Assembly (NCBI GenBank): GCA_003166855.1
Contig: PMUM01000351.1
Location: 1-33,805, forward strand
From: Acidobacteriaceae bacterium
GTDB lineage: Bacteria > Acidobacteriota > Terriglobia > Terriglobales > Acidobacteriaceae
Direction: 5' to 3'
DNA: 33,805 bases
Every line of letters begins with the position of its first letter. Within the stretch, counting starts at the first letter, position 1. The notes under the pieces are model-generated. The model made no database searches, was not told the DNA's origin, and saw nothing but the letters and a program-made list of their open reading frames with translations. Both the position numbers and the translations under genes were made by a program. Shown here one piece after another: positions 812 to 33,747 of this stretch.

Positions 812-1825
812 GTGGCCGAGGGGTTGGCCTGCGTTAAACCGGAAAAGGCAAAAATGGGTAAATTATTGCCTAATGTAGAAAAAGACGGCGGAGATCGATC
901 CAATGCCCGGCCAGCAGGGCTGGCGTTCGTAGAGGGTATCAGTGCGAGCATGCGTCCTGTGGAAGCGGTGATCCGGGAGCTTGCGCAGAGTGATGTTCCG
1001 GTGCTGGTGTTGGCGGAGGCGGGTGCGGGCAAGCATGCCACAGCGCAGCGCATCCATCAAATGTCGCAACGCAGCTCACAACCTTTCCGCTGGTTTCAGT
1101 GTCTAGGTCTTGAACCCCAAGAGCTGGAGGTTTTGCGAGAGCGAGAGGACAAAGGGGAACCGCCGAGCGCGGGAACGATCTATCTTCAGGAACTGGCCGA
1201 TCTGAGTTCGGAATGCCAGGCTTGTTTGCTGGAAGCGCTGCCGCAATCGCCGGGGAATGGGATCGCGGGCAACGAGCGTGCCCGGCTCATCTGTGGCAGT
1301 GCCCGCGACCTCGAGGTTGAAGTAAAACGCGGCCGGTTGCGCGAGGATCTTTATTACCGCATCAGTGGGGTGTGTTTGCGCGTGCCGCCTTTGCGACAGC
1401 GGAAAGAAGACATTCCGTTTCTGATGGGGTACTTCCTGCGCAAGTACGCGCGGGATTTCCGCCGCACGGTTCCCGACTTGAGCGCCGAGACGCTGCGCTT
1501 GTTTCTGGATTATTCGTGGCCGGGGAACCTGCGGGAACTGGAAGATGCCGCGCGGGTGCTGGTGGCTCTGGGAGATGAGCACGTGGCCCTGGGTGGTCTG
1601 CGCGCTCTTTTGCGCAAGCCGGAAGCCAGCGTTAATGGAGCGGGTGTTTCGCTGAAAGCGGCGTCGAGGGCGGCCTCGCGCGAGGCGGAAAAAGAACTGA
1701 TCCTGAATACATTGACACGCACGCGCTGGAACCGGCGGCGGGCCGCAGAGGAATTGCAGATCAGCTACAAGGCATTGCTTTACAAATTGAAACAAATCGG
1801 ATTTGAAGGATACGGAGCGTCCTAG
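812..1825 (+). CDS. Sigma-54-activator-like regulator lacking GAFTGA (337 aa)
   Basis: AAA+ central domain of the NtrC/enhancer-binding family with a C-terminal Fis-type helix-turn-helix, probably the DNA-binding regulator of the EPS operon. Visible motifs: a degenerate Walker A (AEAGAGKHA, about 68-76), a Walker B region reading GTIYLQEL (121-128) in which the usual D of DE is Q, an arginine-finger segment (RLREDLYYR, 175-183), sensor II GNLREL (238-243) and the HTH at about 294-331. The stretch between Walker A and B is shortened and the GAFTGA loop that contacts sigma-54 is absent. There is no receiver domain. Start choice: GTG at 812 lies 9 bases after AGGAG (798-802). TTG at 803 abuts that site, and ATG at 854, behind GGAAAAGG, is the alternative if the promoter at 777-792 is used. 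It lies 15 bases before the export gene. Confidence 0.85.
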   Translation: MAEGLACVKPEKAKMGKLLPNVEKDGGDRSNARPAGLAFVEGISASMRPVEAVIRELAQSDVPVLVLAEAGAGKHATAQRIHQMSQRSSQPFRWFQCLGLEPQELEVLREREDKGEPPSAGTIYLQELADLSSECQACLLEALPQSPGNGIAGNERARLICGSARDLEVEVKRGRLREDLYYRISGVCLRVPPLRQRKEDIPFLMGYFLRKYARDFRRTVPDLSAETLRLFLDYSWPGNLRELEDAARVLVALGDEHVALGGLRALLRKPEASVNGAGVSLKAASRAASREAEKELILNTLTRTRWNRRRAAEELQISYKALLYKLKQIGFEGYGAS

Positions 1826-4062: not shown

Positions 4063-5622
4063 ATGATTCAGAATCGCGAATTAACGATGGACGATTACCT
4101 GTCGATGTTGCGCCGACGGGCGAAGGTGATCCTGATTCCCGCCCTGGTGGCGCCGCTGGTGGGATTTCTGGTTTCGTTCGCCTTCACCCCGAAGTACACC
4201 TCGCAGTCGTTGATCCTGGTGGAAGGGCAGAAAGTGCCGGAGAGCATGGTGCAGCCGGTGGTCTCCGAGGACCTGGCCGCACGCATGGCGACCCTGCAAC
4301 AGCAGGTGATGAGCCAGACCAATCTGCAGCCGGTGGTGGATCGGGTTTTCCCGGGCAAGAATAGCCAGGAAGTGGGCGAGATCATCGACGATATTCGTCT
4401 GAACATGACGGTGGAGCCGGTGGTGACGGATCTGTCGCAGGCGTCTGGCAAGAAGAAGGGCGGGCAGAGCACGGAGGTGCCGGGCTTCTATGTGAAATAC
4501 ACCACTTCAAGACCGCGCGACGCGAAACAGATTTGCGATGAACTGACCAACTTGCTGGTAAACGAGAATATGAAGTCCATGCAAGCTGCAGCGACCGGCA
4601 CGAGCGATGTACTCAGCAAGGGACTGGAAGACGCGAAGCAGCATCTCGACCAACTGGATTCCAAGCTGGCGGAATTCAAGAAACAATATGTAGGGCAGCT
4701 TCCGGGAGACGAGGAGAACAACCTGAAGATCCTGATGGGCCTAAACTCGCAATTGGAGTCGAACACCCAGACGCTAAACCGGGCGCAGCAAGACAAGGCA
4801 TATACCGAGTCGTTACTGGCCCAGCAGTTGGCAACGTGGAAATCGACGCAATCCTCGACCAATCCGCAGACGCTGGAAAAACAGTTATCCGACCTGCAAT
4901 CGCAACTTCTCAGTCTCCAGGCACGCTATACCGAAGACCATCCCGATATGATTAAGACGAAGGCGGACATATCGGAAGTAAAGAAGAAACTGGCAGAGAT
5001 CAACAAAGCATCCTCCGATGCTGCGGACACCAGTGCTGATAAGGCTTCGGCGACGGAGCCGCCTGAGATTCGCCAGTTGCGGATGCAGGTCCATCAGTAT
5101 GGAGCCCTGATCACGGCGGCCACGGCCGATCAGAAGAGACTCCAGCGTGAAATCGCCGCGTACCAGGGCAAGGTGTCGCTGAGCCCAGCCGTGGAGGAAC
5201 AGTACAAGGGGCTTACGCGCGACTATGACAATGCTCAGAAGTCATATTCGGATTTGCTGGCCAAAAAGAGCACGGCCGATCTTACCGTCAAAATGACCAA
5301 TCAGTCGGAAGGGGAGCGGATGTTTGTCCTGAACCCGGCCGACGTGCCGGACTCGCCAAGTTTCCCCAACCGGTTGCTGTTTGCGGCCGGCGGACTGGCC
5401 GCTGGGCTGGCACTGGGTGGCGGAATAGCCATGTGGCTGGAGTTGCGGGATAACTCCATCCGCACCGAGGCCGACGCTGAGGCGGCTTTGCAGTTGCCTA
5501 TGCTGGTTTCGGTGCCATGGGTGGGTGTGGCGACGGCACCCGAGAACAACAGCAAGCTCAAATTCTGGAATCGCAACAAGAATCCGGAAGAACCCAAGAG
5601 CAAGGAAACGGTCGGAGTTTAA
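4063..5622 (+). CDS. Wzz/EpsF-like chain-length determinant (519 aa)
   Basis: Inner-membrane polysaccharide co-polymerase that sets chain length and links polymerisation to export. Residues 1-20 are cytoplasmic (a DDYLSMLRRRAK entry typical of Wzz_N). TM1 spans about 21-41, and a long periplasmic part is rich in Gln, Lys and Glu with coiled-coil character (about 170-400). The conserved Pro-rich segment PDSPSFPNR (about 429-437) comes just before TM2 (about 438-460). The 59-residue cytoplasmic tail has no kinase domain; the kinase is encoded separately downstream. AGGA at a suitable distance precedes the ATG. The length and design match the chain-length proteins of exosortase-type EPS loci. 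Confidence 0.93.
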   Translation: MIQNRELTMDDYLSMLRRRAKVILIPALVAPLVGFLVSFAFTPKYTSQSLILVEGQKVPESMVQPVVSEDLAARMATLQQQVMSQTNLQPVVDRVFPGKNSQEVGEIIDDIRLNMTVEPVVTDLSQASGKKKGGQSTEVPGFYVKYTTSRPRDAKQICDELTNLLVNENMKSMQAAATGTSDVLSKGLEDAKQHLDQLDSKLAEFKKQYVGQLPGDEENNLKILMGLNSQLESNTQTLNRAQQDKAYTESLLAQQLATWKSTQSSTNPQTLEKQLSDLQSQLLSLQARYTEDHPDMIKTKADISEVKKKLAEINKASSDAADTSADKASATEPPEIRQLRMQVHQYGALITAATADQKRLQREIAAYQGKVSLSPAVEEQYKGLTRDYDNAQKSYSDLLAKKSTADLTVKMTNQSEGERMFVLNPADVPDSPSFPNRLLFAAGGLAAGLALGGGIAMWLELRDNSIRTEADAEAALQLPMLVSVPWVGVATAPENNSKLKFWNRNKNPEEPKSKETVGV

Positions 5623-5645
5623 GCGAAGCAGTTCTAGGGACACCT

Positions 5646-6602
5646 ATGTACAAAGAGTTCTACGGACTACGGGCGAACCCGTTCAACGTGAATCCGGACC
5701 CGCGTTATCTGTTTCTGACGCGGCATACGGAGGAGGCGCTGGCTTGCCTGACCTATGGAATCCAGAGCCGCAAAGGTTTTGTTCTGCTGACCGGGGAAGT
5801 GGGCACAGGCAAAACGACGCTGATCAACAAATTGCTGGAGTGGCTGCGTCTGCAGCAGGTGGCGACGGCATTCATCTTCAACTCGCGCCTGAACACGCCG
5901 CAGTTTCTGGATTACATGATGGCCGATTTCGGTATCCCATGTGATTCGAAGGCCAAGAGCCAGATCCTGCTACGTCTGTACAACTGGCTGCTGGATCGCT
6001 ACCGGGCAGGGGAGACGGCGGTGCTCATTGTCGATGAGGCGCAAAACCTGTCGGACGAAGTGCTGGAAGAGATCCGCATGCTGACCAACCTGGAGACGTT
6101 CACGGAGAAGCTGCTGCAGATCGTCCTGGTGGGACAGCCGGAACTGGAACAGAAATTGAAGCAGCCGCAATTGCGGCAATTACGGCAGCGCCTGACTCTG
6201 CGGGCCAAGACGCATGCCCTGACCCTCGACGAGACCAAAGCGTACGTGCAGCAGCGGCTGCGCATCGCCGGGTCGAATGGGCAGCAGATTTTTGAACCCG
6301 AGGCGCTGGTGTCGATCCACCGCTACGCGTCGGGCATTCCTCGCGTGATTAATCTGCTGTGCGAGCATTGCCTGGTAAGCGCGTTTGTCGATCAGCAGAA
6401 GATCATTGGGCCGAATGTCGTGGACGGAGTGGCGCGGGACTTCGATCTGGGGGACAACACGACGTCCGGTGCCCTCACGGTGCCCCCGTCAAGCCCGACG
6501 GCAGAAAAATTTGATTTGGTGGATGCGCTGCGGTCGCTGGCCACGCTGGCCGATCGCTTGAAGCAGGAAGAAAAGGACCTCCCCGACGAAAGGAAACTAT
6601 GA
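5646..6602 (+). CDS. ExeA-like AAA ATPase of the EPS system (318 aa)
   Basis: AAA+ ATPase of the ExeA/GspA type that accompanies exosortase-linked EPS loci; it probably works at the inner membrane with the chain-length protein and kinase. Start MYKEFYGLRANPFNVNPDP is the family signature; longer in-frame starts upstream would overlap the Wzz gene and are rejected. Walker A GEVGTGKTT is at 50-58, Walker B LIVDEAQ at 127-133, a sensor strand ending VLVGQPEL at about 160-167 and an arginine-rich LRQLRQR at 177-183. The C-terminal 60 residues are less conserved and contain no membrane segment. It lies 23 bases after the Wzz gene and overlaps the kinase by ATGA (6599-6602). Confidence 0.92.
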   Translation: MYKEFYGLRANPFNVNPDPRYLFLTRHTEEALACLTYGIQSRKGFVLLTGEVGTGKTTLINKLLEWLRLQQVATAFIFNSRLNTPQFLDYMMADFGIPCDSKAKSQILLRLYNWLLDRYRAGETAVLIVDEAQNLSDEVLEEIRMLTNLETFTEKLLQIVLVGQPELEQKLKQPQLRQLRQRLTLRAKTHALTLDETKAYVQQRLRIAGSNGQQIFEPEALVSIHRYASGIPRVINLLCEHCLVSAFVDQQKIIGPNVVDGVARDFDLGDNTTSGALTVPPSSPTAEKFDLVDALRSLATLADRLKQEEKDLPDERKL

Positions 6603-7531
6603 GCCGAATTCATGAAGCGTTGAAGAAAGCCGAACAGGAGCGGGCAGCGACCCAGGGAGGGGCGGTGCAGCCCAGCTTCGCGACGGCTCCGGTGGCGGAT
6701 CCTCCGGTGTTCACTGAGACCCCGGCCGATCCGGCGCCTGCAGCCCCGTCGACGGCGCGTGTGGGAATGCCCGCTTTCGCCAGCCCGTTCAGCATCGATA
6801 CTCTGCTGGCCCGATGCCCGCAGAGGGACTGGAAACCAGACTTGTCGACCATGTTGTTTATGAACGACGACGACAGCATGCGCGGCACCGAGGAGTTTCG
6901 CACTCTGCGTTCGCGGCTGTACCACATGCGGGAGAAGATGACGCTCAAGACTTTGCTCGTGACGAGCGCCCTGCCCAAGGAGGGCAAGACATTCACATCC
7001 GCAAACCTGGCCCAGGTTATCGTGCGGCAGCACGGCCGGAGAGCCTTGCTGATCGATGGCGATTTGCGCGGACCGCGGTTGCATCTCTCGTTGGGAACGG
7101 CGGCCGGGCCCGGTCTCTCGGAATACCTGCAGGGCAAAAATGATGAGTTTTCCATCATGCAGCGTGGACCGATGGAAAATCTTTTCTTCATTCCAAGTGG
7201 TACCGGCATCGAAGATCCGGCAGAACTGGTGGGCAACGGACGGTTGAAGATTCTGTTGCAGCGGGTAGAGCCGCTGTTTGACTGGATCATCATCGATTCG
7301 CCGCCCGCCATCCCGGTTTCCGATGCCAGTCTGCTGGCGAAGGCTTGCGATGGAGTGCTGCTGGTGGTGCGCTCGAATTCGACCCCTTCCGACATCGCCC
7401 GCAAGGCTCGACAGGAGTTTCCCGATCAGGTGCTGGTGGGCGTTGTACTGAACGGGACGAGTGAGGAGGCAGCGCCTTACGCGCGCTATTACTACGAGTC
7501 CTACAAGACCCCAACCCCGGCCAAGTCCTAG
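6599..7531 (+). CDS. Bacterial tyrosine kinase (CpsD/CapB type), 310 aa
   Basis: Cytoplasmic BY-kinase that autophosphorylates on a C-terminal tyrosine cluster and regulates polymer assembly through the membrane chain-length protein. Start MSRIHEALKKAEQERA is a family signature. A Pro/Ala-rich linker (about 20-60) precedes the kinase domain. Walker A is SALPKEGKT (123-131, Lys where Gly is usual in PGEGK), Walker A' LLIDGDLR (150-157) and Walker B WIIIDSPP (229-236). The tail has Tyr at 294, 297, 298, 299 and 302. The kinase is split from its activator, as in Gram-positive and exosortase-type systems. It overlaps the ATPase gene by four bases. Confidence 0.94.
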   Translation: MSRIHEALKKAEQERAATQGGAVQPSFATAPVADPPVFTETPADPAPAAPSTARVGMPAFASPFSIDTLLARCPQRDWKPDLSTMLFMNDDDSMRGTEEFRTLRSRLYHMREKMTLKTLLVTSALPKEGKTFTSANLAQVIVRQHGRRALLIDGDLRGPRLHLSLGTAAGPGLSEYLQGKNDEFSIMQRGPMENLFFIPSGTGIEDPAELVGNGRLKILLQRVEPLFDWIIIDSPPAIPVSDASLLAKACDGVLLVVRSNSTPSDIARKARQEFPDQVLVGVVLNGTSEEAAPYARYYYESYKTPTPAKS

Positions 7532-7543
7532 GAGAAGTCAGAA

Positions 7544-8944
7544 TTGATCCGGCTTTTCAAAGTCTATTACCCGGCGCGAACCCTGGTGCTGTTGACGGTC
7601 GAGACGCTGATCGTCTGGGCTTCGTTTGTACTGGGAACAATGGTACGAAGCCGGGAAGACTGGCTGCTGCAACTCAATAACGAACTGTTCATCGAGGGCG
7701 GATTCTTCAAGATCCTGGCAGTGACCGCGATTGTGCTGCTCATCTCCCACGGCCTGGACCTCTACGATTCTTCCAGCCTCGGCGCCAGGTGGGATCAAAT
7801 CTTCCGTCTCTTGTTGGTGCTGGGCTTCGTGGCGCTGGCTTTGTCTGGTGTGGGTTACGCATACCACGTTTTCCTGCCGGGTCGTGATTTTCTGCCTCGA
7901 GACTCCGCGCTGGTGGGTCTCGTCATTCTGACTTTTGCGCTTCTGGGCTGGCGTGGGGTCTACTCCTGGCTGGTGCAGCAGAAGTATTTTCGCGAGCGGG
8001 TCTATGTGCTGGGGACGGGAGATCGGGCCCAACGGCTTCTGAACGGGCTGCGGCAACGCTCTGAACTCGGCATTGAAGTGGTGGGATGGACGGGGGACCT
8101 TGAGGGAGAAGTGACTCGCGAGTCGGTGGGTGCCCACTTGTTGGATCTGGTGCGGGAGAGCGGAGTGCACCGAGTCATCGTGGCGATGCCGGATCGGCGC
8201 GGCACGCTTCCCGTGGACGAGTTGCTGAACCTGCGGCTAGACGGAGTGAAGGTCGAGGAAGCAACCTCGTGGCTGGAAAGAATTAACGGAAGAATCGAAG
8301 TAGAGAATTTGAATCCGAGCTGGCTGATATTCGCCGACGGGTTCCGCTTCAGCACGTTCTTCCGGCTCGTGCGTCGTGCGTTGAACTTTTCGGTGGCGCT
8401 CGTCGGACTGATATCTTCGCTGCCGCTGCTGCCGTTTATTGCCATAGCCATAAAGTTCGGCTCTCCAGGGCAAGTTCTCTATCGCCAGGAACGCGTGGGC
8501 AGAGGAGGCAAAACCTTCCTCTGCTATAAATTCCGCACTATGCGACAGGACGCGGAGGCCGATACGGGTGCGACGTGGGCAACTGATAACGATCCCCGCA
8601 TCACGCGCGTCGGGAAATTTCTGCGCACCTCCCGTCTCGACGAGATTCCACAGCTTTGGTGCGTTTTGAAAGGCGACATGCATTTTGTGGGTCCCCGGCC
8701 GGAGCGGCCGGAGTTCGTAAAAATGCTGACCGAAGAGATCCCCTTTTATGGGGTCCGCCACACGGTGCGGCCGGGAATCACGGGCTGGGCCCAAGTGCAA
8801 TACAAGTACGGAAATACATTGGAGGACGCGCGCGAAAAACTGCAATACGACTTGTTCTATATCAAGAACGCTTCGGTCGGGCTGGACTTCTGGATCGTCT
8901 TCCAAACCATCAAGATCGTGTTGCTGGGGCGGGGCGCGAAATGA
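7544..8944 (+). CDS. Undecaprenyl-phosphate sugar phosphotransferase (466 aa)
   Basis: Polyisoprenyl-phosphate hexose-1-phosphate transferase (WbaP/EpsB type) that starts repeat-unit synthesis by loading a sugar phosphate onto undecaprenyl phosphate. The N-terminal half has about four membrane helices (from VLLTVETLIVWASFVLGTM) followed by a CoA-binding-like Rossmann region (VYVLGTGDRAQRLL). The C-terminal bacterial sugar-transferase domain starts with the helix at about 280-303 and carries KFRTM (329-333), DEIPQLW (366-372) and GPRPERPEF (383-391). TTG start at 7544 with GGAG (7531-7534) 9 bases upstream. The substrate sugar (Glc, Gal or GlcNAc) cannot be told from sequence. Confidence 0.94.
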   Translation: MIRLFKVYYPARTLVLLTVETLIVWASFVLGTMVRSREDWLLQLNNELFIEGGFFKILAVTAIVLLISHGLDLYDSSSLGARWDQIFRLLLVLGFVALALSGVGYAYHVFLPGRDFLPRDSALVGLVILTFALLGWRGVYSWLVQQKYFRERVYVLGTGDRAQRLLNGLRQRSELGIEVVGWTGDLEGEVTRESVGAHLLDLVRESGVHRVIVAMPDRRGTLPVDELLNLRLDGVKVEEATSWLERINGRIEVENLNPSWLIFADGFRFSTFFRLVRRALNFSVALVGLISSLPLLPFIAIAIKFGSPGQVLYRQERVGRGGKTFLCYKFRTMRQDAEADTGATWATDNDPRITRVGKFLRTSRLDEIPQLWCVLKGDMHFVGPRPERPEFVKMLTEEIPFYGVRHTVRPGITGWAQVQYKYGNTLEDAREKLQYDLFYIKNASVGLDFWIVFQTIKIVLLGRGAK

Positions 8945-13240: not shown

Positions 13241-14213
13241 CGAAGTGTTGTCTGTGCTCCGTTGCCTTTCCTGTCGCGGCCACCTCGAAGACAGAGAGAG
13301 CGAACTGATGTGTGCCGGTTGCAACCGGAAATATCCCCTGGTGAATGGCATCGTTCGCTTTGTGGATGCGCAACAGTACGCCGGCAGCTTTGGCTTCCAG
13401 TGGCAACTACACGCCCGCACCCAGTTGGACAACAATGAGAGCCAACGCTCGGAGCGCGCCTTCCGCAGGCGTACCGGCTTTCGTCCGGAAGACCTCGCGG
13501 GGAAGTTGGTGCTCGACGTGGGATGCGGCATGGGGCGTTTTGCGGACGTGGCCACACGTTGGGGAGCCCACGTGGTCGGCATTGATCTCAGCCTGGCGGC
13601 GGAGGTCGCGGCTCGCAATCTGGCGGGACGCACGGCCACGATCTTCCAGGCAGATGTTTTCCAGCTTCCGTTTGCTCCCGGAAGTTTTGATTTTATTTAC
13701 AGCATTGGTGTGCTCCACCACACACCGGATTGCGAGCGCGCATTCAAGATGTTGCCAGGACTGCTGAAGCCAGGTGGGCGAATCGCCATCTGGCTCTACA
13801 GCGGGTACAACAACTGGTACAAGATGAGCGACGTATACCGCAAGGTGACGCGGCGCATGCCGCCGAAGTTGTTGCATAAATTGTGCTGGGGCGTGGTTCC
13901 GCTGTACGGCGTTCATCAGGTGCTGAGGAAAATTCCACTGGTGGGCCGTCCGGCGAGCGGTGCGCTGGCGTACATGATCCCCATGGCTTTTCACCCCGAT
14001 CGAACCTGGCGGATTCTCGATACGTTTGATTGGTATTCACCGTGGTACCAGTCGAAGCACACCTATGAGGAGGTGTTTCGCTGGTTTGAGAGCAGCGGAC
14101 TCCAGGATCTGCGAGTGATCGAACAGCCCATTGCGGTGCAAGGGACAAGGCCTCTCTACCAGGACGCAGGCAAGGCACAGGATGAAAAGGAGATCGGCCA
14201 GTGTGTGGAATAG
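13200..14213 (+). CDS. SAM-dependent methyltransferase with N-terminal zinc ribbon (337 aa)
   Basis: Class I methyltransferase with Rossmann motif I LVLDVGCGMGRF (103-114) and an acidic motif II (GIDLS, 127-131), followed by the post-I strand ATIFQADVFQLPF. The first 55 residues carry four cysteines (C22, C25, C38, C41) and KYPLVNGIVRF, a Trm112/UPF0434-like zinc ribbon often fused to methyltransferases of this group. It probably methylates a sugar of the EPS or a lipid-linked precursor; the acceptor is not known. ATG at 13200 lies inside the end of the Wzy-like gene, and the gene ends 13 bases inside the asparagine-synthase-like gene, so translation is probably coupled. Confidence 0.88.
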   Translation: MTVSLDRNQSGVADEVLSVLRCLSCRGHLEDRESELMCAGCNRKYPLVNGIVRFVDAQQYAGSFGFQWQLHARTQLDNNESQRSERAFRRRTGFRPEDLAGKLVLDVGCGMGRFADVATRWGAHVVGIDLSLAAEVAARNLAGRTATIFQADVFQLPFAPGSFDFIYSIGVLHHTPDCERAFKMLPGLLKPGGRIAIWLYSGYNNWYKMSDVYRKVTRRMPPKLLHKLCWGVVPLYGVHQVLRKIPLVGRPASGALAYMIPMAFHPDRTWRILDTFDWYSPWYQSKHTYEEVFRWFESSGLQDLRVIEQPIAVQGTRPLYQDAGKAQDEKEIGQCVE

Positions 14214-16171
14214 CGGGCATCGTCGGGAAGAGGGGCGAAGTCGTCGAAGCCGCCGACGTGCACCGGATGTGCCAGACGATCGTTCACCGCGGGCCCGATG
14301 ATGAAGGGATCTACGCCCAGGGTCCGGTGGGGTTGGGTATGCGTCGGCTCAGCATTATTGACTTGGCCGGCGGGAAGCAGCCCATTCACAACGAAGACCG
14401 GACAGTCTGGGTGGTCTTCAACGGAGAGATCTACAACTTCCCGGAACTGCGCCGCGAGTTAGAGGGGCGAGGCCACCAGTTCTACACCCACAGCGATACT
14501 GAGGTGATCGTCCATCTCTACGAAGAGATGGGTGCGGATTGCGTGAAGAAGCTTCGCGGAATGTTCGCGATTGCGCTCTACGACACAAAGCGAGACACCC
14601 TACTGTTGGCTCGCGACCGATTGGGCAAGAAGCCCTTGCACTACGCGTTGCATCAGGGGCGGCTTCTGTTTGGATCAGAGATCAAGACGATCCTCGCTTT
14701 GCACCCAGAACTGGCGGAGATCGATCCTGAAGGTGTGCTCCAGTATTTCTATTTCGGCTACATCCCCGATCCGCACACCGCGTTCCAGCGCATCCGCAAA
14801 TTGCCCGCAGGGCACTTGATGGAATTCCGCCACGGCGAAATGAAGATTCGCCAATATTGGGACCTGCCCGAGTACGGCACGCACCCGCCGATCAGCGAAG
14901 AAGAATGCCTGGACGAGTTGGAGCGGCGGCTGGAAGAGGCCGTACGCATCCGTCTGATCAGTGATGTGCCTTTGGGGGCGTTGCTGAGCGGAGGCGTAGA
15001 TTCCTCCATCATCGTGGCGCTGATGGCGCGTACGAGCGCCAAGCCGGTCAAGACATTTTCCATCGGTTTTCGAGCGGAGGAGTTCAACGAATCGGAGTAC
15101 GCGCGCCTCGTCGCGGAACGATTTGGCACTGAGCATCACGAACTGATCCTCGAGCCGGATCTGGAAGAGACATTGACCTATCTTTCCGGAATGATGGAGG
15201 AGCCGTTTGGTGATTCCTCCATGCTTCCCACGTATTACGTATGCCGGATGGCGCGGCGACAGGTAACGGTCGCGCTCTCGGGCGACGGTGGGGATGAGCT
15301 ATTTGCCGGGTATGACCGCTATCTAGTGGCCATGGAACGGCGGAAATTCGATTCCCTCTCGCGCTGGTTGGGACCAATCTATCGCGATCGCATTCATGGC
15401 CTGATCCCGGCCGGAATGTACGGGAAAAACCTGGCATGGAATGCATCTCTGACTGATCGTGATCGTTATCTGGACGGAATCTCGTTTTTGCCCGCTTTGC
15501 ATCGTGAACGGGACCTGTTCACGCGAGAGTTTCTGGACAGTGCAGAGCGCCTTCCTGATCCTCTGCTGGAATGGCAGCGGATCTACGATGGTGCTCCAGC
15601 CCGGGACCGGCTGAGCCGCTTGCTGTACCTCGATACCAAGACATATCTGAATTCCGACATTCTTACCAAAGTCGACCGAATGAGCATGGCGACGTCGCTC
15701 GAAGTGCGCGTGCCCTTGCTCGACCATGAACTCGTAGAGTGGGTGACTTCTCTTCCGGTGGAATGGAAGTTTCGATCCGGAGTCCGGAAGCATATTCTGA
15801 AAAAGCTGGCAGAACGGCTGGGGATTCCTCCCGCGCTGCTTCATCGGAGGAAACAGGGCTTCCAGTTGCCGCTGGTGGAGTGGATGCGGAGCGAAACTAA
15901 AGCCAAGTTTTGGGGCGTGTTGCTGGAATCTCGCACACTGCAGCGAGGCTACTTCAAGCCGGAGGCGGTTAGGACGGTCATCGATGAACATGTGCGTGGT
16001 CGACGCAACCGCTCGGGTATGTTGTGGCGCATGTTGGTGATGGAACTGTGGCACAGGAATTTCATGGAGGCTCGATCGAACTGGGGTGTCACGACCAGAG
16101 CTCCTGACATCTTCGCGAGTGAATCCGGTGCGCCTCCGCCTCGGGCGGCCACCGTGCAGGTGCAGCCGTAG
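14201..16171 (+). CDS. asnB: AsnB-type glutamine amidotransferase, copy 1 (656 aa)
   Basis: Glutamine-hydrolysing asparagine-synthetase family. Cys2 of the MCGIAGI start is the N-terminal nucleophile of the glutaminase domain (2 to about 210), with RGPDDEG at 31-37 and FNGEIYN at 73-79. The synthetase domain carries the ATP pyrophosphatase loop SGGVDSS (263-269) and later SGDGGDELFAGYDRY. Both halves look intact, so ammonia transfer to an adenylated carboxylate is expected. In EPS loci such proteins are thought to amidate uronic acid groups rather than make asparagine; that is inference here. GTG start at 14201 behind AAGGAG; overlaps the methyltransferase by 13 bases. The C-terminus extends beyond E. 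coli AsnB by roughly 100 residues. Confidence 0.92.
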   Translation: MCGIAGIVGKRGEVVEAADVHRMCQTIVHRGPDDEGIYAQGPVGLGMRRLSIIDLAGGKQPIHNEDRTVWVVFNGEIYNFPELRRELEGRGHQFYTHSDTEVIVHLYEEMGADCVKKLRGMFAIALYDTKRDTLLLARDRLGKKPLHYALHQGRLLFGSEIKTILALHPELAEIDPEGVLQYFYFGYIPDPHTAFQRIRKLPAGHLMEFRHGEMKIRQYWDLPEYGTHPPISEEECLDELERRLEEAVRIRLISDVPLGALLSGGVDSSIIVALMARTSAKPVKTFSIGFRAEEFNESEYARLVAERFGTEHHELILEPDLEETLTYLSGMMEEPFGDSSMLPTYYVCRMARRQVTVALSGDGGDELFAGYDRYLVAMERRKFDSLSRWLGPIYRDRIHGLIPAGMYGKNLAWNASLTDRDRYLDGISFLPALHRERDLFTREFLDSAERLPDPLLEWQRIYDGAPARDRLSRLLYLDTKTYLNSDILTKVDRMSMATSLEVRVPLLDHELVEWVTSLPVEWKFRSGVRKHILKKLAERLGIPPALLHRRKQGFQLPLVEWMRSETKAKFWGVLLESRTLQRGYFKPEAVRTVIDEHVRGRRNRSGMLWRMLVMELWHRNFMEARSNWGVTTRAPDIFASESGAPPPRAATVQVQP

Positions 16172-31806: not shown

Positions 31807-33747
31807 ATGTGTGGAATCTGCGGGATCTTCTTCTCCGATCGCGACTGGCACGTCAAGGGCGACGTGTTGGCGGGCATGAACCGCCGCATCGTGCACCGCG
31901 GGCCTGATGACGAAGGCTTCTTCGTCGAGGAAAATGTTGGCCTGGCCATGCGGCGTCTCAGCATCATCGACGTCAAGAGTGGTCATCAGCCTTTGGCCAA
32001 CGAAAATCAGGACGTCTGGATCGTATTCAACGGTGAGATTTATAACCATGCAGAGCTGAGAGTCGGGCTGGAGGCTAGGGGCCATACCTACCGCACGCGC
32101 AGCGACACGGAAACCATCGTCCACCTGTATGAGGAGTATGGCCGTGACTGCGTGAAGCACCTGCGTGGCATGTTCGCCTTCGTGATTTGGGATCGCCGTA
32201 AGCGCATGATTTTTGCGGCGCGGGACCGCCTTGGAATCAAGCCCCTCTACTACCGCTGGGACGGCAAAGCCTTCCTTTTCGGATCGGAGATCAAGACGAT
32301 TCTCGCGTATCCCGGCGTGGAAGCGGAATTCAATCGGAGCGCTCTGGCTGAGTATCTCGCGTTTGGTTACATCACCGGCCAGGAGACGATGTTTGCGGGT
32401 GTTCGCAAACTCATGCCTGGTCACACCCTGGAACTTTCAGAGCACGGCGAGCCCAGGATCGAGCGTTACTGGGATCTGACGACAGAAGTGGATGCGGAGC
32501 CGCGTCCGCACGAGTATTACGTGAAGACCTACCGGGAACTTCTCGAAGATGCGGTGAAGTCGCATTTGATGAGCGACGTGCCCCTGGGGGTGTTTCTGAG
32601 CGGCGGACTGGATTCGAGCGCGGTGGCCGCGCTCACCACAAAGATTCGCGGCAACCAGATTCAGACTTTTGCGGTCGGTTACGGCGAGGAGGAGTTCAGC
32701 GAACTCCGATATGCAAAGCAGGTCGCCGAACACATTCGTTCCGATCATCATGAAGTACGTCTGAGCCGCGAGGAATTCTTTGCCAGCCTGCCGCAGCTGA
32801 TCTGGCACGAGGACGAGCCGGTAGTGTGGCCGTCGAGCGTTTCTCTCTATTACGTGGCACGCCTCGCGCGAGAGCGAGTCACGGTGGTGCTCACTGGTGA
32901 AGGCAGCGACGAAACTTTGGCCGGATACACCAGGTATGCGTGGACGCTGTTGAATTCGAAGATGGACCGAACCTATCGCGCGCTCACTCCTGCATTCTTG
33001 CGCCGGATGTTGCGTACCGCGGTTGGAAAGGCTCCGCTGTCAGCCAGCGTGCACCGCAAACTGGAGCACACGTTCCTGATGAGGGACGGCGAGGACTGGC
33101 CTTCCTTTTACTTCGACAACTTCTACTCAGCGTTTTCCGCGAGTGAGTTTCCCGAGCTGTTGACCCCGGGGGCGCTCGTAGCCGCGGGACAGGCATATGC
33201 CGGGTCCATGGGTGCGTGGGAACGATCTCATGGCGACTTGCTGCATCGCCTGCTTTACACCGACATCAACAGCTATCTCATTGAGCTGTTGATGAAGCAG
33301 GATCAGATGAGCATGGCTGCCTCGATCGAAAGCCGTGTGCCATTTCTGGATCATCCGCTTGTGGAATTCACCGCGCGAATTCCAGTGAAGGAAGAAATCA
33401 AAGGGATGGCCGGCAAATTCATTCTGAAGGAAGCGGTCGCGGACCTTCTGCCCGAGGACATCGTATACCGCAAGAAGATGGGCTTCCCAACGCCTTGGGC
33501 CTATTGGCTGGCCGGTTCGCAACTGGCGGAGATTGAACGCCTGTTGTCGGAGCCGCGAAGCCACGCCAGAGGACTGTTCCGACCCGAGGCGATCCAGCGT
33601 ATCTTTGCCGAGCACCGCGCGGGATATCGCGATCATGGCAACCGCATCTGGCGGCTGCTGAACCTCGAACTCTGGCAGAGGGTATTCCTCGATGGTGAGG
33701 TCGATGCGGTGGTGAGCAGTTCGCGGACAGGCGGGCTTGTTCGCTAA
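31807..33747 (+). CDS. asnB: AsnB-type glutamine amidotransferase, copy 2 (646 aa)
   Basis: Second complete asparagine-synthetase-family protein. Cys2 (MCGICGIFF) is the glutaminase nucleophile, with RGPDDEG (31-37) and FNGEIYN (74-80). SGGLDSS (265-271) is the ATP pyrophosphatase loop and TGEGSDETLAGYTRY matches the second synthetase motif. The pattern fits the amidotransferase 1 type of exosortase loci more than housekeeping AsnB. It differs from copy 1 in its synthetase half and tail, so the two are likely to amidate different acceptors. ATG at 31807 lies 3 bases after the heparinase-like gene. Only 58 bases remain after the stop, with no terminator visible. Confidence 0.92.
   Translation: MCGICGIFFSDRDWHVKGDVLAGMNRRIVHRGPDDEGFFVEENVGLAMRRLSIIDVKSGHQPLANENQDVWIVFNGEIYNHAELRVGLEARGHTYRTRSDTETIVHLYEEYGRDCVKHLRGMFAFVIWDRRKRMIFAARDRLGIKPLYYRWDGKAFLFGSEIKTILAYPGVEAEFNRSALAEYLAFGYITGQETMFAGVRKLMPGHTLELSEHGEPRIERYWDLTTEVDAEPRPHEYYVKTYRELLEDAVKSHLMSDVPLGVFLSGGLDSSAVAALTTKIRGNQIQTFAVGYGEEEFSELRYAKQVAEHIRSDHHEVRLSREEFFASLPQLIWHEDEPVVWPSSVSLYYVARLARERVTVVLTGEGSDETLAGYTRYAWTLLNSKMDRTYRALTPAFLRRMLRTAVGKAPLSASVHRKLEHTFLMRDGEDWPSFYFDNFYSAFSASEFPELLTPGALVAAGQAYAGSMGAWERSHGDLLHRLLYTDINSYLIELLMKQDQMSMAASIESRVPFLDHPLVEFTARIPVKEEIKGMAGKFILKEAVADLLPEDIVYRKKMGFPTPWAYWLAGSQLAEIERLLSEPRSHARGLFRPEAIQRIFAEHRAGYRDHGNRIWRLLNLELWQRVFLDGEVDAVVSSSRTGGLVR

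Follow-up and report, generated by a model that had tools for sequence, protein, structure and literature searches.

VpsR, a regulator of exopolysaccharide (EPS) genes in Vibrio cholerae, has a receiver-like N-terminal domain. It carries a deletion within GAFTGA (PMC3162934) and works independently of RpoN; BerB, by comparison, acts with RpoN and c-di-GMP (PMC5552954). Among other enhancer-binding proteins (EBPs) without GAFTGA, TyrR, DhaR, and HupR are reported to act at sigma-70 promoters, and the same source lists VpsR together with YplP as defective (PMC3162934). Caulobacter and Rhodobacter NtrC, which are without the motif as well, are likewise reported to act at such promoters; the Caulobacter protein both activates and represses, its own operon being repressed, and its deletion leads to mucoid colonies (PMC10274813). 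GAFTGA-less EBPs are usually taken as having moved to sigma-70. The PrsR circuit of Proteobacteria is characterized by an upstream motif and a sigma-54 motif before PEP-CTERM genes (PMC1569441), while the Azotobacter bEBPs VnfA1 and VnfA3 are interacting paralogues that share the same promoters (PMC9542535).

Loop-less EBPs such as TyrR, VpsR, and Caulobacter NtrC are already known, but the setting of the one described here is new. Its gene lies in a window of 33,805 nucleotides, the whole stretch of DNA analyzed, from an Acidobacteriaceae bacterium (contig PMUM01000351.1 of assembly GCA_003166855.1, genome G000). Like VpsR, the protein lacks GAFTGA and is found in an EPS setting, and the two have AAA+ homology (phmmer 1.1e-24 to 7v2b). 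Unlike VpsR, it has no N-domain, and two conserved sites, a sigma-54 element and a palindrome, precede its operon. With NtrC of Caulobacter and Rhodobacter capsulatus it shares an L1 deletion that includes GAFTGA (PMC10274813). Those proteins, however, are nitrogen-gene response regulators, and decay of Walker B, as seen here, is not described for them in the available text of the same source (PMC10274813). The EPS/exosortase setting is also that of the PrsR/PEP-CTERM circuit, and gene clusters linked to a canonical paralogue of the present protein hold PrsT, PEP-CTERM, and exosortase genes; PrsR itself possesses a receiver and a sigma-54 interaction domain, whereas the loop-less protein has neither receiver nor GAFTGA. 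For the VnfA1/VnfA3 pair, in distinction from the loop-less EBP, the available text of PMC9542535 mentions no loop-less or ATPase-dead partner. Full-text search of a limited literature collection found no paper in which GAFTGA and "acidobacteri" occur together.

The open frame runs from TTG 803 to 1825 on the forward strand, as do the gene parts, promoter sites, and EPS genes described below between 617 and 8944, and encodes 340 aa. The original prediction had set the gene at 812–1825, of which the frame and the end were borne out. The start was not: TTG 803 and GTG 812 are both unlikely start codons, because a −24/−12 element at 777–792 sets the predicted transcription start near 803. Translation likely begins at ATG 854, where ATGGG is retained in all 12 aligned rows, giving a putative gene at 854–1825 and a product of 323 aa, only ~25 residues of which precede the AAA+ core. 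The architecture is PspF-like, composed of an AAA+ core, a lid, and a Fis-type HTH, with no sensory domain. Pfam recognizes Sigma54_activ_2 (PF14532; 80 bits, cut-off 25) and Sigma54_activat (PF00158; 79.1 bits, cut-off 20.2), with AAA_lid_14 and HTH_8 also above gathering score; it gives no Response_reg match, hence no N-terminal receiver domain. At the Walker A place (1013–1036), the usual GESGTGKE is replaced by AEAGAGKH, followed by a further alanine, so that the lysine of AEAGAGK is retained and the first glycine has become alanine. The expected L1/GAFTGA position is occupied by a seam from QCLGL to PSA (1097–1171), and inspection of the translation between Walker A and Walker B revealed no GAFTGA-like remnant. 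The Walker A lysine and the Walker B position lie 52 residues apart, compared to 65 in 25/25 canonical rows. Walker B itself is degenerate: IYLQEL (1178–1195), within GTIYLQEL, has glutamine for aspartate and keeps the glutamate. The arginine-finger segment GRLREDLYYRISGVCLRVPPLRQRKEDI (1331–1414) is intact, sensor II reads WPGNLRELE, and the HTH, with NRRRAAEELQISYKALLYKLKQIG, matches Pfam HTH_8 over residues 293–331 of the 340-aa frame (1679–1795). What had been read from the letters, namely the absent GAFTGA, AEAGAGKHA for Walker A, and QE for Walker B beside a retained arginine-finger segment, sensor II, and Fis-type HTH, is thus all present in the translation of frame 803–1825.

Assignment to a named family did not follow. 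Of NCBIfam models, 24 match the protein and none above its curated cut-off; those for PrsR (TIGR02915; 150.5 vs. 502.6 bits) and TyrR (NF008085; 115.9 vs. 576 bits) are among those not reached. An AlphaFold2 model of moderate quality (pLDDT 74.6, pTM 0.61), used solely for fold confirmation, has VpsR (7v2b) among its fold matches at rank 49. The genome G000 holds 29 Sigma54_activat matches, two of which look Clp-type. Besides the window protein, 25 of its EBPs carry GAFTGA or a 1–2-letter variant, and among those showing the region the window protein is the only loop-less form. Another of the 29, the EBP-like frame L027 (G000:C135:29953-30084), does not show this region and is missing a recognizable first AAA+ half before its lid and HTH.

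An assembly or frameshift artefact can be rejected as the source of the deletion, as the loss is common to 27/37 searched genomes of the genus and to 94/94 relatives. Within genus g1 (Ca. Sulfotelmatobacter, Terriglobia), the gene is present in 27 of the 37 searched genomes at 58–100% identity and was not found in the other 10; the 37 are distinct from G061–G068, eight further genus genomes. The loop is missing in all 27 copies, none of which has an internal stop. A profile built from 12 rows and run against 299 Terriglobia genomes, followed by inspection of the fetched loci, places the loop-less gene in at least 66 genomes, a count that leaves out G169, whose gene is a fragment beginning at Walker B. 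The alignment compares 94 loop-less rows: 29 at genus level, another 8 from the sub-clade to which these belong, and 57 from the rest; G286, G325, and G289, beyond these rows, are loop-less too. GAFTGA-like motifs occur in 0/94, and in 25/25 canonical comparison rows, which count one G000 protein twice, include L248 (placed beside a response regulator in the tree), and have Walker B Glu changed to Gly in two. The Walker A lysine is invariant (94/94), and the first glycine is alanine in 29/29 genus rows. For the genus, the other sub-clade members, and the rest, respectively, the Walker B aspartate is kept in 2/29, 0/8, and 54/57 rows, the Walker B glutamate in 29/29, 5/8, and 37/57, the first arginine finger in 29/29, 8/8, and 54/57, the second in 29/29, 4/8, and 55/57, and the sensor II arginine in 20/29, 6/8, and 56/57. 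Because the loop is gone everywhere while many members have intact catalytic residues, the catalytic losses would have come later and more than once; judged from the alignment, loop loss is universal in these rows and Walker B damage is later and recurrent. The aspartate was lost mainly in the window's sub-clade and the glutamate in 20/57 rows outside it. Two other accounts were rejected: that Walker B is broken only in the window's sub-clade (aspartate is lost in 3/57 and glutamate in 20/57 rows elsewhere), and that it is lost in all members of family f1 (L173, of f1, retains DE). With the loop at 0/94 and the aspartate at 2/29, the residues themselves argue, as originally predicted, against sigma-54 open-complex formation in the ordinary way. 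In the wider phylum, 6/396 sampled genomes match at 1e-84, all of family f1, which is a weak test of absence outside the class.

A tree built without the L1 and L2 columns, by a quick method with no bootstrap, unites 52 loop-less rows in a single clade (SH-aLRT 98), and 18 rows with the broken Walker B aspartate form a sub-clade (SH-aLRT 96). The clade nests in a supported group (SH-aLRT 100) together with the response regulator L024, L220/L222 with their GSFTGA, and a lone AAA+/HTH EBP found in the same genomes, here labeled EBP353 (L020; L131:6914-7975). Across six close orthologues, a simple counting method with dS near 1 gives a mean dN/dS of 0.095 for the loop-less gene. By part, the HTH has the lowest ratio (0.036), followed by the arginine-finger/lid (0.041), the Walker A half (0.053), and the stretch between Walker B and sensor I (0.117); the seam, at 0.38, has the highest of the parts compared. 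EBP353, by the same method over four genomes, has 0.053 overall and 0.014 in L1. These ratios indicate that purifying selection maintains the loop-less protein, above all its DNA-binding and arginine-finger parts. GAFTGA-bearing forms do occur near or at the same operon position: GSFTGA and DE homologues (L220-L222; G139, G134, and G111) lie ~600–720 bp upstream of an export gene, and EBP353-type GAFTGA genes L268 (G088) and L270 (G138) lie 137 and 204 bp upstream of one. Intact motifs at this place had been proposed as the mark of a sequencing or assembly deletion. They are present in these five genomes, but they are not taken as a sign of error in the window, because the loop-less clade is supported (SH-aLRT 98) and its gene is under purifying selection (dN/dS 0.095). 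The GAFTGA-bearing forms are read as the ancestral or an alternative state.

Another EBP lineage in the genus has no GAFTGA either. It comprises L145, L146, L147, L149, L150, and L151 (G033, G002, G001, G016, G011, and G026), lies directly upstream of another EPS-export operon, mostly keeps Walker A and B, and, in members whose N-terminus is covered, reads as receiver-bearing; the fragment L148 (G006) is also of this type. This second lineage also falls in the SH-aLRT 100 group, where the tree sets it beside the GAFTGA-bearing response regulator L024, and its GAFTGA would accordingly have been lost independently.

Directly downstream of the loop-less gene, and next in the presumed operon, is a Wza-like EPS export gene (1841–2458; TIGR03027, 153.5 bits vs. 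a cut-off of 180). Further genes resembling those of XrtA systems, presumably of the same operon, follow at 4063–8944, and include a chain-length determinant and an ATPase, both under their own cut-offs, a tyrosine autokinase above the eps_fam cut-off, and an EpsB_2 glycosyltransferase above cut-off. The export gene is downstream on the same strand in 27/27 genus copies (26 at 19–176 bp, L032 at 0 bp). At class level it lies 22–266 bp downstream on the same strand in 56/60 loci (L162-L219, L223, and L228) and was not seen in the fetched stretch of L206, L209, L210, and L217. As to the proposed check on conservation of the deletion in homologues beside EPS loci, 94/94 rows have no GAFTGA and most genes directly precede an export gene. 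Where the gene is missing, the export gene can persist alone, as in G030 (74%). The closest export genes at L141-L143, from genus genomes without the loop-less gene, have 74–77% identity; by eye, L143 retains a palindrome-like site with a −24/−12 that looks broken, L141 has both degraded, and L142 has another coding sequence upstream of the export gene. Promoter module and loop-less gene may have decayed jointly in these three cases.

The −24/−12 element is TGGCAAGCTTCGTGCT (777–792), with GG at 778–779 and GC at 790–791, and most orthologues have one at the matching position. An enhancer-like palindrome, GTGAGAAAAAGTTTTCCCAC (617–636), has its center ~150 bp before the −24 element, and the genome also contains rpoN. 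Both the sigma-54 element and the palindrome were scored with simple weights of our own, and controls are first-order Markov resamples. The sigma-54 score reaches at least 17 in 84/91 loop-less loci with sufficient upstream sequence. The best palindrome falls 129–153 bp upstream of the −24 element in 57/84 loci, compared to 10.1% of resampled controls, and outside that spacing in 27/84; L033, L167, and L202, with too little upstream sequence, and seven loci under the sigma-54 score were dropped. Spacing played no part in building the palindrome consensus, but the nominal p of 1e-36 is inflated, because the rows share kinship and some of the sites had been seen before the consensus was drawn. 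Individual loci give modest signals: the −24/−12 element has p < 0.05 against resampled sequence in 39/72 loci, a few of the 72 being canonical or GSFTGA-bearing, and the palindrome has p <= 0.05 in 31/95 loop-less-side loci, L220-L222 included. The short pattern TGRGNAAANNNTTTNCC is found upstream of 22/27 genus genes, one miss (L033) having hardly any upstream sequence, and is unspecific, matching somewhere in 43/45 genus genomes and usually at more than one place. The full-length pattern has one exact place in G000, before the protein's own sigma-54 element, and one other with two mismatches. Between palindrome and promoter, most aligned genus members have a second conserved block, ATATAAGCTACTGAAAACATGGAGT at 710–734 (TAAGTTATTGAAAATA in relatives), which may be another promoter or a site for a bending protein.

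EBP353 is the canonical counterpart. It shares architecture, HTH, palindrome type, and the supported tree group with the loop-less protein and is linked to it in several genomes, and differs in having GAFTGA, Walker A, and Walker B intact, both in G000 and in nearly all rows compared. It lies ~5–7 kb upstream of the loop-less gene in L119, L120, L121, L122, L131, and L132; in G000, EBP353 and a PEP-CTERM cluster are on another contig (C380). The L131 cluster includes PEP-CTERM protein, PrsT-type TPR protein, PilZ, histidine kinase, and response regulator genes, and the L120 cluster an exosortase gene. The PilZ gene (L131:6336-6713) adjoins EBP353 (L131:6914-7975), which hints at c-di-GMP input to the EPS circuit, and L120:5652-7250, which is oriented divergently to the loop-less gene, encodes an exosortase fused to an EpsI/DUF3485 domain, above the XrtD cut-off. 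At E 1e-95 or better, EBP353-like matches occur in 59/66 checked loop-less genomes and 71/232 others, which may contain further loop-less genes (Fisher p 2e-18, ignoring kinship and computed with G169 as loop-less, 60/67). None was found in seven checked loop-less genomes, some genomes being incomplete. Three of the seven (G295, G086, and G119) nevertheless fall within the spacing window, which calls for a different activator in those genomes. The HTHs in G000 nearest that of the loop-less protein are those of L024 (28/50) and EBP353 (L020, 25/50).

A sigma-54 element precedes the EBP353 gene and, by eye, the PEP-CTERM gene, and the palindrome TGCGCANACATTTTCAC stands before both; this pattern has two exact places in G000 and one with two mismatches, and its reversed control has two matches. 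That the window palindrome is exactly the site of EBP353 in G000 is unsupported. The EBP353 site there, GTGTGAAAATGTTTGCGCAT, differs from the window site, and shared sites in G000 therefore rest on resemblance. In other genomes, sites of canonical paralogues come close to that of the window, for example GTGGGAAAATGTTTTCCCAC in L225. The palindrome reaches p <= 0.05 upstream of 23/31 loci fetched as canonical paralogue, which include L247 and L248 from genomes without an EBP353-like match. Nor is the module confined to operons with the loop-less gene. Twenty-five genomes were chosen for having an EBP353-like match and no recognized loop-less gene, 22 of which have the export gene; a palindrome lies 123–181 bp upstream of a sigma-54 element in 14/25 export loci examined. 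Among the best export loci of genera g20 and g22, none with a recognized loop-less gene, 13/14 have the palindrome/sigma-54 module by our count, in a grouping made afterwards in which L261 fails and L253 has a weak palindrome (9/14 positions). No EBP frame was seen within 1.5 kb upstream of these loci. The module is thus independent of the loop-less protein, and the enhancer can serve a normal activator; the loop-less protein would have joined, or been dropped from, an existing sigma-54 circuit.

Together, the conserved −24/−12 element, the palindrome, and the g20/g22 module place the loop-less protein inside a sigma-54 circuit rather than departed from one, probably as a brake on, or partner for, a true activator. 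More specifically, the chances are about even that it acts on the true activator at this enhancer, its own gene included, with a restraining or tuning effect, either as a competitor that binds DNA or as a subunit of mixed rings. The protein would be a paralogue of a sigma-54 activator that kept DNA binding and the AAA+ subunit-contact residues and lost the loop that touches sigma-54, with the Walker B aspartate lost additionally in the window's lineage. It would bind the palindrome upstream of its own sigma-54 promoter, an enhancer type also found before EBP353, where EBP353, or the response regulator L024, may be the activator. Activation would be held back or tuned either by occupancy of the enhancer or by entry into mixed AAA+ rings. 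The conservation of the arginine fingers despite loss of the Walker B aspartate would favor mixed rings. Since the loop-less gene comes first in the EPS operon, the outcome would be negative feedback on that operon. Enhancer competition or mixed rings is the most economical role because sigma-54 activators have both the closest HTHs in its genome and the sites most like its own.

The sign of the effect could conceivably be the opposite. The loop-less protein might tether or stabilize a canonical activator, in a mixed ring or as a DNA-bound scaffold, and provide site recognition while its partner provides ATPase and GAFTGA. Such a role would explain retention of the arginine fingers and Walker A lysine though Walker B is broken, as well as the co-occurrence with EBP353 and the linkage in several genomes, and it has a parallel in Azotobacter VnfA1 and VnfA3, which bind the same promoters and co-activate (PMC9542535). 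It is nonetheless rather unlikely: the g20/g22 EPS operons have the module without a recognized loop-less gene, suggesting that a positive partner is not generally needed, and the gene is missing from 10/37 searched genus genomes. Those absences, together with the G030 export gene (74%) that persists alone, could also be taken for a gene in decay with little function. That reading is very improbable in the face of a dN/dS of 0.095 overall and 0.036 in the HTH (dS near 1), 0/27 internal stops, and a position before the export gene maintained across the class.

The original prediction offered three roles, namely sigma-70 regulator, repressor, and co-assembling partner. The latter two are favored by the present analysis, and the first is weakened, because the protein's own operon is preceded by a sigma-54 element and, at nearly constant spacing from it, a conserved palindrome. 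Departure from sigma-54 to regulate sigma-70 promoters classically, in the manner of TyrR, VpsR, or Rhodobacter and Caulobacter NtrC, has the precedent of several GAFTGA-less relatives (PMC10274813; PMC3162934), and polysaccharide genes are also under VpsR. Yet the sole exact match to the palindrome in G000 precedes the protein's own sigma-54 element, and the enhancer-like spacing holds across the class, which makes such a departure unlikely. A degenerate AAA+ domain might instead bind a nucleotide or c-di-GMP and thereby switch DNA binding, as in VpsR, FleQ, or BerB. The EPS context, the PilZ gene beside EBP353 in L131 (L119, L121, and L122 have homologues of it), the Walker A lysine in 94/94 rows, and VpsR among the fold matches (7v2b, rank 49) all point in this direction, but PilZ adjacency is indirect, and a ligand sensor seems quite improbable as the main function. 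It is compatible with the preferred competitor or mixed-ring reading.

Although GAFTGA-less EBPs are generally assigned to sigma-70, the genes of this loop-less clade stay first in an operon that has a sigma-54 element and, at a nearly constant distance, an enhancer-like site, and most of its genomes also carry a GAFTGA-bearing paralogue. With this clade, the question of whether dead subunits are tolerated or put to use in sigma-54 activator rings can be asked in a natural system, and exopolysaccharide switching in soil Acidobacteria gains a testable scheme. A bolder and somewhat doubtful extension is that a dedicated dead subunit for sigma-54 rings evolved in Terriglobia, encoded by the operon it controls and sharing the enhancer type with its active paralogue, whose rings it would enter as a rheostat; EPS output would then depend on how many dead subunits there are relative to active ones. 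If so, the separate loss of GAFTGA in the second lineage before another EPS operon would mean that EPS control came by this design more than once. The same EPS region of the window also contains, by sequence reading, two asparagine-synthetase-like amidotransferases, at 14201–16171 and 31807–33747.
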